A DNA stretch of 64,000 nucleotides from Arcobacter defluvii (lineage in GTDB: Bacteria; Campylobacterota; Campylobacteria; Campylobacterales; Arcobacteraceae). Positions 6,095-56,946 of this stretch are shown here, one piece after another (the first letter of the stretch is position 1; each line of letters begins with the position of its first letter). The stretch spans positions 2,108,001 through 2,172,000 of the forward strand of contig NZ_CP053835.1 in the NCBI RefSeq assembly GCF_013201725.1, written 5' to 3'. Both the position numbers and the translations under genes were made by a program. The notes under the pieces are model-generated. The model made no database searches and was not told the origin of the DNA. It worked only from the letters and a program-made list of their open reading frames with translations.

Positions 6095-6118
6095 AAGTAA
6101 GTTTTAAAACTTACTTTT
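6093..6118. terminator. Bidirectional terminator between speB and leuA
   Basis: AAAAGTAAGTTTT followed directly by AAAACTTACTTTT is a perfect 26-base palindrome. It overlaps the stop codons of both convergent genes, so one hairpin serves both. Confidence 0.7.
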
Positions 6119-7418
6119 AACTATTTAACTTTTTATATAGTCCGATTATTTCTTCTTTTTCTAACTCTCTTTTTAATCTATCAGATTCTTCTTTTATAAC
6201 TAAACCAAATTTTATAGCCTCATCTTTATTCATTTCTACTCCTAAAAATTCACTTATTATAAAACTTGCTCCACCTTTTCCTGATTGAGAATTTACACGT
6301 ATTACTTTTTCATATCCTCTTTTTATATCTTTTGGGTCAATTGGTAAGTATGGTACATTCCAACTTTGGCTATTTGTTTGTCTATAAAAATCTATTCCTT
6401 TTTTTATAGCATCTTGATGTCCACCACTAAAAGCGGTAAATATCATATCACCAACAAAAGGATGTCTTGGATGTACAAAAAGTTGCGTTTTTTCTTCGTA
6501 CATGGCTTTTACTTCATCAATTATTGATAAATCAAGTTTTGGGTCAATTCCTTGTGAATAGATATTAAAAGCAAAATTTATTATGTCCAAGTTCCCTGCT
6601 CGCTCCCCATTTCCAAATAAAGTTCCTTCAACCTTATCTGCTCCTGCAAGTACGGCTAACTCTGCACTTGCTACAGAAGTTCCCCTATCATTATGAGGAT
6701 GAACACTGATTATCAAAGCTTCGCGATTGTGTAAATTCTTACACATCCACTCTATTCTATCTGCATAAACATTTGCTGTACAAGCTTCAAGAGTATTTGG
6801 TAAGTTTATTATCATCTTATTTTCTTTTATTGGTTTTACCACATTTATAACTTCATTACAAATCTTTACAGCAAACTCTAAATCTGTTTGAGAAAAGCTT
6901 TCTGGTGAATATTGATAAGTTACTTTTCCTTTAAAATCTTTTGTTAGTTCAACTAAATATTGCATAGCTTCAATAGCCATTTGAATTATCTCATCATCAC
7001 TTTTTTGAAAAACAACTCTTCTTTGAAACTCATTTGTTGGATTGTATAAATGAAAGATTCCATTTTTTACATCTTTCATAGCTTCTACACTTTTTTTAAT
7101 CCACTCTTTTTTTGCAGGAATCAAAATCTGAATAGCTACATCATCTGGCACTAAATCCTCTTCTATTAATTTTCTAGTAAAGTTAAAATCCGTATCACTA
7201 GCACTTGGGTAACTAACTTCTATTTGTTTAAAGCCTATTTTTACTAAAGATTTAAAATACTCCAATTTTTGCTCTACTGTTAAAGGATTTATCAAAGCTT
7301 GATTTCCATCTCTTAAATCTACACTACAATAAATTGGTGCTTTTGTTATAGTTTTATCTGCCCACTCTCTTTTAAAATTTTGCACAATAGGATATTGTTG
7401 ATATTTTTTGAAACTCAT
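6117..7418 (-). CDS. leuA: 2-Isopropylmalate synthase, short form
   Basis: First step of leucine synthesis: acetyl-CoA plus 2-oxoisovalerate to 2-isopropylmalate. The N-terminus (ITKAPIYCSVDLRDGNQAL, from about 24) is that of the actinobacterial/yeast-like LeuA branch. Metal and catalytic motifs are present: DLRDGNQ (34-40), HPHNDRG (240-246), GNGERAGN (269-276). At 433 residues it ends after the TIM barrel and linker subdomains, about 120 residues short of that branch's usual size, so the C-terminal leucine-binding regulatory domain is absent. The stop lies at a terminator, so this is not an obvious frameshift. No other leu genes are adjacent. A leader peptide precedes it. Confidence 0.9.
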   Translation of the reverse strand: MSFKKYQQYPIVQNFKREWADKTITKAPIYCSVDLRDGNQALINPLTVEQKLEYFKSLVKIGFKQIEVSYPSASDTDFNFTRKLIEEDLVPDDVAIQILIPAKKEWIKKSVEAMKDVKNGIFHLYNPTNEFQRRVVFQKSDDEIIQMAIEAMQYLVELTKDFKGKVTYQYSPESFSQTDLEFAVKICNEVINVVKPIKENKMIINLPNTLEACTANVYADRIEWMCKNLHNREALIISVHPHNDRGTSVASAELAVLAGADKVEGTLFGNGERAGNLDIINFAFNIYSQGIDPKLDLSIIDEVKAMYEEKTQLFVHPRHPFVGDMIFTAFSGGHQDAIKKGIDFYRQTNSQSWNVPYLPIDPKDIKRGYEKVIRVNSQSGKGGASFIISEFLGVEMNKDEAIKFGLVIKEESDRLKRELEKEEIIGLYKKLNS

Positions 7419-7472
7419 GGTTTACTCCGTTATAATTTTTGTTTTTTGATTTGTTTTTTTATGTTTTAAGTA

Positions 7473-7535
7473 TTAGAAAGTTTTGAGGCAGAGGAGAGAA
7501 AAAGAGATAATTTGTTTTATAATATTTACATCCAT
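7473..7535 (-). CDS. Leucine-rich leader peptide of leuA (leuL-like)
   Basis: A 20-codon frame with a strong AAGGAG ribosome-binding site 7 bases before its ATG. It encodes MDVNIIKQIISFSLLCLKTF and then TAA. The stretch CTC-CTC-TGC-CTC uses leucine codons that are scarce in neighbouring genes, where TTA and CTT dominate; that is the hallmark of an attenuation leader. leuA begins 54 bases beyond its stop with its own GGAG site. I see no GC-rich terminator hairpin between them, so control could be translational or Rho-dependent. The existence of the frame is direct; its role is inference from position and codon content, as for E. coli leuL. Confidence 0.7.
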   Translation of the reverse strand: MDVNIIKQIISFSLLCLKTF

Positions 7536-7598
7536 GATAAACTCCTTTTTAAATTTTGCAAATTATAACTTTTACAAAAAATAAAATCTTGTACAAAA

Positions 7599-8384
7599 TT
7601 AACATTTTGAAAAAATATTTTTTTGATACTCTTTTGGTGTAATTTGAAAAATTCTTTTAAAACTTCTATTTAAGTGACTTTGGTCAAAAAAACCACTATC
7701 TTGAGCTATTTGAGATATAGAAATATTTGAAGTCAATAGCTCTTTTGCAAGATGAACTTTTTTATTTAAAATATATGAGTGAATTGGAAGTCCAAACTCT
7801 TTTTTAAATACTCGTATTAGATGAACAACTGTTAAATCAAACTTCAAAGCTAACTCATCTAAGATAAACTCTTCAAGATAACTTTCATCTAAATATTTTT
7901 TTATATTCATTGCTAAAGTTGATTCTTCTTTATAGTTTTGTTCTGTTTGTTCAAAAGAAAAAAATGCCAGACAAAATAGATAAAGATTTTCCTCTTTTTC
8001 TATCAAAGAGACTTTAATATCAAGTAAACAATCACATAATTTTATAAAACTTTTATAAATATTTTTATTTTTGATTAACTCAAAAGCTGATGAAAAATTA
8101 AAATCTAAATTTCTTAAATAATCTTTTTTCAAGTACAAAACATATCCATCTTTTGATTTTTCATTTGTTGTTGCACTATGAGGAATTTGACTATTTATGA
8201 TAGCTATTTCATTTGGTTTTACTGTTATTGAAGTGTCATTGAAAATAAGAGTTAATGAACCTTTTTTTATTGCAGTGATTGTAAGTTCTTCATGTAAATG
8301 CATCTTTACACAATCTTCGATATCTTCTACATATCGTAACTCAATAAAGTCTAGCTTTGGATTTTTAAAGATATCTGATTTCAT
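7599..8384 (-). CDS. AraC-family transcriptional regulator
   Basis: 261 residues. The N-terminal half is a cupin-like sensor (MHLHEELTITAIKKGSLTL, then VKPNEIAIINSQIPHSA, about 28-80). The C-terminal 95 residues hold the paired helix-turn-helix AraC DNA-binding domain (ISQIAQDSGFFDQSHLNRSF and the terminal FQITPKEYQKN). It lies upstream of the leuA leader in the same direction, about 60 bases away, but its target and effector are unknown. Confidence 0.88.
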   Translation of the reverse strand: MKSDIFKNPKLDFIELRYVEDIEDCVKMHLHEELTITAIKKGSLTLIFNDTSITVKPNEIAIINSQIPHSATTNEKSKDGYVLYLKKDYLRNLDFNFSSAFELIKNKNIYKSFIKLCDCLLDIKVSLIEKEENLYLFCLAFFSFEQTEQNYKEESTLAMNIKKYLDESYLEEFILDELALKFDLTVVHLIRVFKKEFGLPIHSYILNKKVHLAKELLTSNISISQIAQDSGFFDQSHLNRSFKRIFQITPKEYQKNIFSKC

Positions 8385-42722: not shown

Positions 42723-43799
42723 ATGAATACATTTGGTCATAGATTTAGGTTTACAACTTTTGGTGAATCTCATGGGAAAGCTCTTGGATGCATAGTTGAT
42801 GGCGTTCCAGCTGGAATTAAAATAGATGAAGAATTTATCCAAAGTGAAATGAATAGAAGAAAGCCTGGTCAAAATAAATTTGCAACTGCGAGAAAAGAAG
42901 GTGATGTTGTAGAAATTTTAAGTGGAGTTTTTGAAGGAATAACTACTGGAACTCCTATTTCTATGGTAATTTTCAATGAAAATCAAAAAAGTAGTGATTA
43001 TTCAAATGTAAAAGATTTATTCCGTCCAGGACATGCAGATTTTACATATTTTAATAAATATGGAACAAGAGATTATAGAGGTGGAGGAAGAAGTAGTGCT
43101 AGAGAAACAGCTGCTAGAGTAGCTGCTGGTGCTATTGCAAAACTTTTATTAAAAGAGTTAAATATAGATATCAAAAGTGGAATTTGTGAAATAGATGGTA
43201 TTCAAGCTTCAACTTTTGATTTTGAAAATGTTTCTAATTCTGAAATATTTGCCTTAGATAAAAATGTTGAAGAAGCACAAAAAAATGCTATTTTAGAAGC
43301 TAAAAATTCACATAATAGTGTTGGAGGAGTTGCACTTATAAATGTATCAAATGCTCCTATTGGTCTTGGTGAACCACTTTATTTTAAGCTTGATTCTCAA
43401 ATAGCAAATGCAATGATGGGAATAAATGCTGTAAAAGCTGTTGAAATTGGAGATGGAGCATTATCTTCAAGAGTAAAAGGTTATGATAATAATGACCAAA
43501 TACGAAAATCTGGATTTAAAACAAATCATAGTGGTGGAATTCTTGGTGGTATTTCAAATGGTGATGATATAAATGTAAAAGTTTATTTCAAAGCAACTCC
43601 ATCAATTTTTATAGAACAAGAAACTATTGATATAAATAATAATGAAGTAGAATGCAAACTAAAAGGAAGGCATGACCCTTGTGTTGCTGTACGTGGAAGT
43701 GTTGTTGCTGAGTCAATGATGGCTTTAGTTCTTGCTGATATGGTATTACTTAATATGTCATCAAAAATGGAAAATGTTAAAAAAGTCTATAATAACTAA
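42723..43799 (+). CDS. aroC: Chorismate synthase
   Basis: Last step of the shikimate pathway. 358 residues. Signatures [38 protein letters not shown], and [18 protein letters not shown] are present. Needs reduced FMN. Its tail overlaps the following peptidase gene. Confidence 0.98.
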
Positions 43800-54795: not shown

Positions 54796-56946
54796 TTATA
54801 TATGAAAATCCAAATTATATTTTTCATTTATTGGAATTTCTAAGATAACCATACAACCTTTATATACTTCATCATTCTTTATAAAATCCATATTCTTAAT
54901 ATCTATTCCTCCTTTCATATGCTCAACAATAATTTGATGAGACATATATAATCCTATTCCAGTTCCTTGAGATTTGTGTTTTGTAGTAAAATAAGGTTCA
55001 AAAACTTTTGATATCACTTCATCTTCTAGTCCACCACCATTATCAGATATTTCTACAAAACATTTTTTATTTTTTATATAAGTATTTATATCAATAAATC
55101 TTTTATTTTTATCTTGATTTAATAAAGCATCTTTTGAATTATTTAAAATATTTATTATTACTTGTAAAAATTCATTTGGATAACCATTTATTATTAAATT
55201 TTCAATATTTTTTGTTTCAATTTTTATATTATGATTTTCAATACTCGATTTCAAAAGGTTTAATACTTTATTAATACTTTTATTTACACAATAATTTTCA
55301 ATATTTTTATCAGCTTTAAAAAAATTTCTAAAATCATCTATCGTTTTAGAAAGATACTGTGTATTATCAACTATTAAATTCAAAGATTCCACCAATCTTT
55401 CATCACTAATAGTTTTATTGAACTCTTTTTCAAATTTGATTCCACTTGCACAAGTACTTATCAAACTTAAAGGTTGTCGCCATTGATGAGCAATATTTTC
55501 TATCATTTCACCCATTGCAGCCATTTTTGATTGTTGAGAAAGTAATTTGTCTTTATCTTTTAACTCTGTAATATCTATCAAAGTTGATAGTTTAACAACT
55601 CTACCATTTAATTTTAAAAATTTTCCTTGTCCTAGACAAGTAAATTTTTGATTATTTATAACTATTTCAAATTCATATGGTAAAGTATTTTTTACATAAT
55701 TTTTTATTAATAATTCTTTATAATTTTCATCAACAAACTCTAAAAGATTTTTACCTAATAATTCATCTTTATTATTTAATTGTAAAAATTTAATTGCCAC
55801 ATTATTTGCATCTACACAAATTCCTTTATCATGAATTATCATAATTTCCATAGTTGAATTAAATAAAGATTTAAAACTATCTAACGAAGCTTCTAAAGAC
55901 TCTTCTCTTTTATCAATCTCTATTTTCATTTTATTAAAACTATTTAATAATAAATTAAATTCATTGTAATATGAATCTTTGATATTAATATCATAATTTC
56001 CATTTGAAATATTTGTTGTAGTTTTTTGTAATTCATCAAAAGAGTTAAAAATTCTTTTTGAAATTTTTAATGATAAACTAATAGCTAATAAAATGAATAT
56101 CAACATACTCAAAAACATTACCAAAACAATGCCAGATAAAGACTTCAATATCAAATCATAACTCTCACTTACAACTATTTTCCAATCTGTTTTTTCTATA
56201 GTTGTATATGTTCCATATAAATTTTCATTATTAAGACTACTATTAAATATTGTAAAATAATATGATGGCAATTTATCTATTAATTTTGTAAATACTTCTT
56301 TTGTTTTTTCATTAAATCTTTGTAACACTAAATCTGGGTTATTCGGATTTAAAACTAAAATTCCATTTTCATCAAATATTTTTACCATATGAGTATCATT
56401 TTGATTTTTAAATCTTGAAATAAATTCAGAAATTTCTTTTAATCTTATCATCAATACAACAACTTTATTATCAAATTTAAAACTATAAGAAATTGCTGGT
56501 TCTTCATCAACTGTTGATAAAAAAACATTAGACCAATAATCACTTTTTCCTTTTTTCAAGCCAAGAAAGTAGTTCTGTTTTGAATAATCAAATCCTTTAT
56601 AAATATTTAAATTCGTTGTTGCATAAAAATCTTTAATTACACCACTATCATCTAAAACTAAAATACTTGAAATATTTGTATTTGTTTCAACTATATTTTT
56701 TAAAAGACTGTTATTATCTTTATAATTGTTTTTTATATACAATGATATATTATAAATTTGAGTTAAAAATTTTTTTACTTCTGATTCAATTTGAAATAAA
56801 ATCTGTTTTTGATTATGTTCTATTATCGTAAGTTTTGAAAAATAAAAATTTATTATTGAAAGTAAACTAATAGCAATAGTTATAAAAATAGAAAAAGATA
56901 TTAAAATATTTTGAATATGCTTTTTTAAGCTTATCTCTTTTTTCAT
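54796..56946 (-). CDS. Sensor histidine kinase with extracytoplasmic Cache-like and PAS domains
   Basis: 716 residues. Transmembrane helix about 13-33, an extracytoplasmic dCache-like domain (about 36-265), second helix (about 270-295), HAMP, a PAS domain (about 355-465), then H-box MIENIAHQWRQPLSLI and ATPase motifs NILNNSKDALL, DNGGGL and GTGIGLYM. Downstream of the binding-protein gene with a four-base overlap. No response regulator gene is adjacent, so its partner must be elsewhere. Confidence 0.9.
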   Translation of the reverse strand: MKKEISLKKHIQNILISFSIFITIAISLLSIINFYFSKLTIIEHNQKQILFQIESEVKKFLTQIYNISLYIKNNYKDNNSLLKNIVETNTNISSILVLDDSGVIKDFYATTNLNIYKGFDYSKQNYFLGLKKGKSDYWSNVFLSTVDEEPAISYSFKFDNKVVVLMIRLKEISEFISRFKNQNDTHMVKIFDENGILVLNPNNPDLVLQRFNEKTKEVFTKLIDKLPSYYFTIFNSSLNNENLYGTYTTIEKTDWKIVVSESYDLILKSLSGIVLVMFLSMLIFILLAISLSLKISKRIFNSFDELQKTTTNISNGNYDINIKDSYYNEFNLLLNSFNKMKIEIDKREESLEASLDSFKSLFNSTMEIMIIHDKGICVDANNVAIKFLQLNNKDELLGKNLLEFVDENYKELLIKNYVKNTLPYEFEIVINNQKFTCLGQGKFLKLNGRVVKLSTLIDITELKDKDKLLSQQSKMAAMGEMIENIAHQWRQPLSLISTCASGIKFEKEFNKTISDERLVESLNLIVDNTQYLSKTIDDFRNFFKADKNIENYCVNKSINKVLNLLKSSIENHNIKIETKNIENLIINGYPNEFLQVIINILNNSKDALLNQDKNKRFIDINTYIKNKKCFVEISDNGGGLEDEVISKVFEPYFTTKHKSQGTGIGLYMSHQIIVEHMKGGIDIKNMDFIKNDEVYKGCMVILEIPINEKYNLDFHI

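Follow-up and report, generated by a model that had tools for sequence, protein, structure and literature searches.

A conserved leucine-codon leader peptide ahead of a second, short leuA in Arcobacter relatives

Immediately upstream of leuA2, a gene for a short 2-isopropylmalate synthase, lies an unannotated frame of 20 codons with a cluster of rare leucine codons near its end. The locus raises the question of whether this frame, here named leuL2, is a leucine leader peptide and, if so, how such a leader might control leuA2 where no intrinsic terminator separates the two. We examined the locus within a 64,000-nucleotide stretch of the Arcobacter defluvii genome, referred to as the window, and in its relatives, which are Aliarcobacter and Arcobacter species. 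The host genome comprises 3.02 Mb in a single contig.

The leader frame, its rare codons and leuA2

The features of the locus are all encoded on the minus strand (Table 1), in the order AraC-family gene, TATAAT box, AAGGAG site, leuL2, a spacer of 54 nt and leuA2. The original prediction of a 20-codon frame with a strong AAGGAG site and a CTC-CTC-TGC-CTC run was borne out by this arrangement: the run occupies codons 14–17, with TGC as codon 16 between the CTC codons 15 and 17. Transcription is predicted to start approximately 7 nt downstream of the TATAAT box.

Table 1. Positions of the features of the leuL2-leuA2 locus within the window.
Feature	Position	Strand	Description
AraC-family regulator	7599..8384	(-)	261 aa; Pfam HTH_18 and AraC_binding; upstream of leuL2, same direction
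Operator-like block	7588..7602	(-)	TTAATTTTGTACAAG; palindromic core TTGTACAA; overlaps araC stop codon
Putative -10 box	7562..7567	(-)	TATAAT; position and TATAMT-like sequence constant across relatives
Shine-Dalgarno of leuL2	7542..7547	(-)	AAGGAG; as AGGAG in nearly all relatives
leuL2 leader ORF	7473..7535	(-)	encodes MDVNIIKQIISFSLLCLKTF; ATG 7535-7533, stop TAA 7475-7473, 20 codons
CTC codons of leuL2	7496-7494, 7493-7491, 7487-7485	(-)	codons 14, 15, 17
C-rich, almost G-free unstructured stretch	7433..7513	(-)	81 nt with 17 C and 1 G; spans Leu codons and spacer; candidate for Rho loading
Shine-Dalgarno of leuA2	7425..7428	(-)	GGAG
leuA2	6117..7418	(-)	short 2-isopropylmalate synthase, 433 aa, without LeuA allosteric domain

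All three leucine codons of leuL2 are CTC. This codon had been described as rare in neighbouring genes, and we found that it accounts for only 12 of the 1722 leucine codons (0.7%) in 54 window ORFs, as compared with 1105 for TTA; against this background, three CTC out of three corresponds to a p of about 3e-7. Of the Shine-Dalgarno-led short frames counted in the window, none but leuL2 has three CTC codons. The one further hit, a frame at 43342 with two CTC codons, was discarded because it sits within aroC. Among the tRNA loci scanned, tRNA-Leu was found with anticodons GAG (once), TAA (twice), TAG (once) and CAA (once). The codon bias extends to the family, where CTC makes up 69 of the 135 leucine codons in 33 distinct leaders and TTA only 16, compared with 64% TTA in window genes. 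In leuL2, as in LeuL leader peptides, rare codons specifying the regulated amino acid are enriched near the end of the ORF. A protein family search with the leuL2 peptide returned no match, and neither did Rfam covariance models, including those of T-box and leucine leaders, run against the leader, even at E values up to 10.

LeuA2 matched NCBIfam model NF002991 at 650.8 bits (cut-off 455) and the structure in PDB 1sr9 (E 1e-127). It contains the Pfam domains HMGL-like and IPMS_D2 and no LeuA_dimer domain. A convergent gene follows leuA2, which is therefore probably monocistronic. The same genome encodes a canonical LeuA of 518 aa that possesses the LeuA allosteric domain, and this gene is preceded by its own leucine leader, MKIFDFYKNHFIKSVNSLLLLSFSL. 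Family-wide, short leuA is present in 43 of 104 genomes and canonical leuA in 100 of 104.

Two further observations concern the leaders of canonical leuA genes. A conserved T-rich, promoter-like TTTAAAAAAAGATATAAT lies between canonical leuA and its leucine leader (L005:1150-1480 and L048-L077); because it sits downstream of the leader, transcription of canonical leuA may partly bypass this leader. In several other Campylobacterota families (L219-L223, L231-L236), the leucine run of these leaders is preceded by a conserved segment, K-x-LPKIEIKN, which exceeds the needs of a simple codon-counting leader.

Conservation of the leader and of the operator-like block

A search for the same frame before leuA in relatives, as suggested with the original prediction, identified a leader with two to eight leucine codons ahead of 38 of 42 orthologous leuA2 genes, across seven genera. 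These 42 are the orthologous short leuA genes with an intact 5' end family-wide; the leaders share ancestry and are not independent, so that family-wide p-values are indicative only. Frames and starts were assigned by hand for the leaders of L014, L015 and L008, the last of which has a spacer shortened to 32 nt by a 22-nt deletion. A second match in the whole-genome DNA comparison (L002, 83% over 41 nt) was rejected as a chance match inside a histidine kinase gene. Most leaders of the genus contain two or three leucine codons, and those of several other genera contain five to eight, with up to eight in the SLLLLLLSNLL-containing leaders of L046 and L047. Within the nearest clade, the changes at leucine codons were one CTC to CTG and two CTC to CTT, all synonymous, and one CTC to TTC.

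Beyond position, Shine-Dalgarno sequence and leucine codons, the leader peptide varies freely between genera. This pattern bears on whether leuL2 could be an ORF that arose by chance, or the gene of a functional micropeptide. Short ORFs are common and the leader has only 20 codons, but conservation of those three properties at 38 loci, free change in the rest of the peptide and the failure to match any protein family make this explanation highly improbable. Sensing of cysteine through the CTC-CTC-TGC-CTC run was likewise rejected: the leucine codons are general and TGC is confined to the nearest clade, which argues for leucine as the sensed amino acid. Judged from these comparisons, leuL2 is real and conserved and belongs with the leucine leader peptides known as LeuL. 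The original prediction of such a peptide ahead of leuA, with rare CTC codons and no intrinsic terminator, is supported by the comparative data.

The short leuA genes of another family with genomes of 2.5-3 Mb (L194-L197, L211-L213) are preceded by a frame with valine and leucine runs (GTC GTC GTC CTC CTC CTG ... CTC). From its sequence, this frame resembles an ilv-type leader.

The operator-like block TTAATTTTGTACAAG is present exactly in 38 of the 42 orthologous upstream regions and with one mismatch in L034. It is absent in the three genomes without a linked araC and present where the leader has been lost. A linked araC orthologue lies beside short leuA in most genomes possessing the latter, and its product is a candidate ligand of the block. 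Since the block tracks the linked araC, dual control of leuA2 is suggested. In four genomes (G011, G013, G014 and G026; upstream of L018-L021), araC contains in-frame stops, and the leaders there have only two leucine codons.

These data also allow a reading in which an AraC-type regulator acting at the block controls leuA2 and the leader within the genus is a decaying remnant. The block outlasts the leader among araC-bearing loci and follows the presence of araC, the leader is gone at L017, L035, L036 and L039, and the genus mostly retains two or three leucine codons as opposed to the five to eight found elsewhere. Because these four orthologous loci lost the leader yet retain the block, the leader is dispensable. 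However, the Shine-Dalgarno sequence and CTC codons are retained genus-wide, the changes at leucine codons are mainly synonymous and the leader persists in the four genomes whose araC carries in-frame stops, and we consider this reading improbable.

Composition of the leader RNA and candidate mechanisms

We found no terminator-like site between 7300 and 7700, in line with the claim that no intrinsic terminator precedes leuA, and no terminator or antiterminator hairpins of the E. coli leuL type between the leader and leuA2. The minimum free energy of the spacer is 0 kcal/mol. Genus-wide, spacers fold at or near 0 kcal/mol, with no G before the Shine-Dalgarno sequence in 17 of 18 leaders (the exception being L043). 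Outside the genus, L046, L047 and the Campylobacter-like L220-L223 contain a small hairpin, the 5' arm of which is formed by the leucine codons themselves. In L199, from a more distant family, a long leucine leader before short leuA is followed by a GC-rich hairpin and a T run; by sequence, this is a classical-looking attenuator ahead of the same enzyme type.

The C-rich, almost G-free stretch spanning the leucine codons and spacer of leuL2 has no counterpart elsewhere on the window's minus strand. When the regions upstream of 66 genes were ranked for C over G, that of leuA2 came first; the second-ranked, upstream of the gene at 56943, was set aside as antisense of rnhB. The C excess follows partly from codon choice, and the leader region gave no match to a strict rut pattern (six C spaced 11-13 nt, C over G). 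Non-leucine NNY codons end in C 55 times and in T 63 times in the last nine leader codons (n=118), versus 33 and 174 times in earlier codons (n=207). Within the genus, TTC exceeds TTT in these last nine codons, yet tRNA-Phe(GAA) was the only tRNA-Phe found among the tRNA loci scanned. This C preference at non-leucine codons suggests selection on the RNA beyond slow leucine codons, among related leaders that are not independent. The genome encodes Rho (667.7 bits).

Rho-dependent attenuation of leuA2 relieved by ribosome stalling would best fit these features and is the best-supported inference. With moderate confidence, we propose that, by this route, leuL2 makes leuA2 expression depend in cis on how much charged tRNA-Leu(GAG) is available. 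When leucine is ample, the ribosome would translate past the CTC codons and release at the leader stop codon, and Rho would then load onto the bare C-rich stretch and end transcription before or early in leuA2. Under leucine shortage, a ribosome stalled at CTC would mask the C-rich tract and exclude Rho, so that leuA2 would be transcribed. Counting against this model, some of the C-containing spacer would remain exposed when the ribosome stalls, and there are the four orthologous loci with the operator-like block and no leader.

Alternatively, attenuation may be translational, with the end of the leader (AAACUUUCUAAUACUU) pairing with the ribosome site and start of leuA2 (GAGUA...AGUUU) and a ribosome stalled at CTC masking the leader side of this pairing, which would free leuA2 for translation. 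The minimum-energy fold does join these segments; in the nearest clade the mean pairing of the Shine-Dalgarno/start region with the leader end is 0.29-0.46 versus about 0.07-0.19 in shuffles (p 0.02-0.13), and the paired segments remain intact despite the 22-nt spacer deletion in L008. Against this, the overall fold has a z-score of +0.52, Shine-Dalgarno/start pairing across 38 loci is 0.42 as compared with 0.50 in shuffled controls, and sister clades within the genus lack the pairing with the leader end, which is found mainly in the nearest clade, where near identity leaves no covariation available. We regard translational attenuation as unlikely. The earlier suggestion of a mechanism that may differ from that of E. 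coli, for example translational or Rho-based, was reasonable: the C-rich, G-free RNA lends moderate support to Rho, and support for translational control is weak and clade-restricted.

The main effect of the leader might instead be to raise leuA2 translation, by bringing in ribosomes that would reinitiate at the nearby leuA2 start, its leucine codons being secondary. The short spacer (54 nt, or 32 nt in L008), which is unstructured and G-free, agrees with this, and reinitiation at leader genes has been argued for in general terms (PMC4833913). Yet the distance peak published there, 10-16 bp, is far below the 54-nt spacer, leuA2 has its own Shine-Dalgarno sequence, and reinitiation leaves unexplained both the extreme CTC bias and the runs of up to eight leucine codons in other genera. 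We judge this role to be quite improbable.

Relation to known leaders and implications

In E. coli and Salmonella, leuL is the attenuator of leuABCD. The leuL2 leader resembles it as a peptide with leucine codons upstream of leuA and differs in the lack of terminator or antiterminator hairpins.

A closer counterpart is found in the same phylum. LeuL was named in Campylobacter jejuni (Porcelli et al, 2013); that paper reports LeuL ORFs of 20-35 aa from most of the Epsilonproteobacteria that possess leu genes, and C. jejuni LeuL RNAs that end shortly past the stop codon (PMC3847290). Translation of C. jejuni LeuL was shown by Ribo-seq in 2025, in a study in which tBLASTn detected LeuL generally only in related Campylobacter (PMC11955535). 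Our position-based search shows that leaders of the LeuL kind are distributed far more widely than this. As in C. jejuni and other Epsilonproteobacteria, leuL2 is a Shine-Dalgarno-led short ORF with rare leucine codons near its end, directly before leuA. Unlike C. jejuni LeuL, it precedes a second, short leuA without the feedback domain, and unlike the leaders of Campylobacter-like relatives, in which a hairpin overlaps the leucine codons, it has no hairpin.

Leader systems dependent on Rho include the E. coli tna operon and, as proposed candidates, the terminator-less cys leaders of mycobacteria (PMC1262725). Like these, leuL2 has no intrinsic terminator, and its RNA is rich in pyrimidines close to where the leader ORF stops; the differences are that leuL2 would sense leucine and that its Rho dependence is predicted. 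In the actinobacterial LEU element upstream of leuA, leucine codons pair with the leuA Shine-Dalgarno sequence in a pseudoknot (PMC1262725). That element shares with leuL2 a leader ORF with leucine codons close to leuA, but we did not find pseudoknot pairing between the leucine run and the leuA2 Shine-Dalgarno sequence. In a comparison of LEU-element type, most loci beyond the nearest clade showed no more pairing of the Shine-Dalgarno/start region with the leader end than shuffles did; within that clade the pairing involves the stop-codon region of the leader, not the leucine run.

With respect to the enzyme, Leptospira leuA2 encodes an additional isopropylmalate synthase that has no allosteric domain and exists beside a canonical LeuA; this leuA2 is superoxide-induced (PMC12345160). 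The short synthase described here likewise accompanies a canonical LeuA and lacks that domain, but it belongs to a different subfamily, as it scores 191 bits against the IPMS_Lepto model (cut-off 500).

Our results carry LeuL beyond Campylobacter, to a second leuA of Arcobacter relatives that has no feedback domain, and show that a single genome can contain two distinct leucine leaders. Since LeuA2 is devoid of the leucine feedback domain, the leader together with the AraC-type operator may replace allosteric inhibition. A broader and more tentative proposal, which we hold to be possible, is that across much of Campylobacterota leucine leaders such as leuL2 would function with no hairpin, through a selected C-rich, G-free tract, composed of the leucine codons and their neighbours, that would serve both as leucine sensor and as Rho-loading site; leuL2 would then be the main brake on LeuA2. 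The leader is unusual mainly for its absent terminator hairpin, and its terminator-less design is what deserves experiment. If its tail acts through Rho, leuL2 would be a compact leucine attenuator in which the codons that sense leucine would also load the terminator and, if true, such a Rho-based leader would account for the restraint of a LeuA that is not subject to allosteric inhibition.
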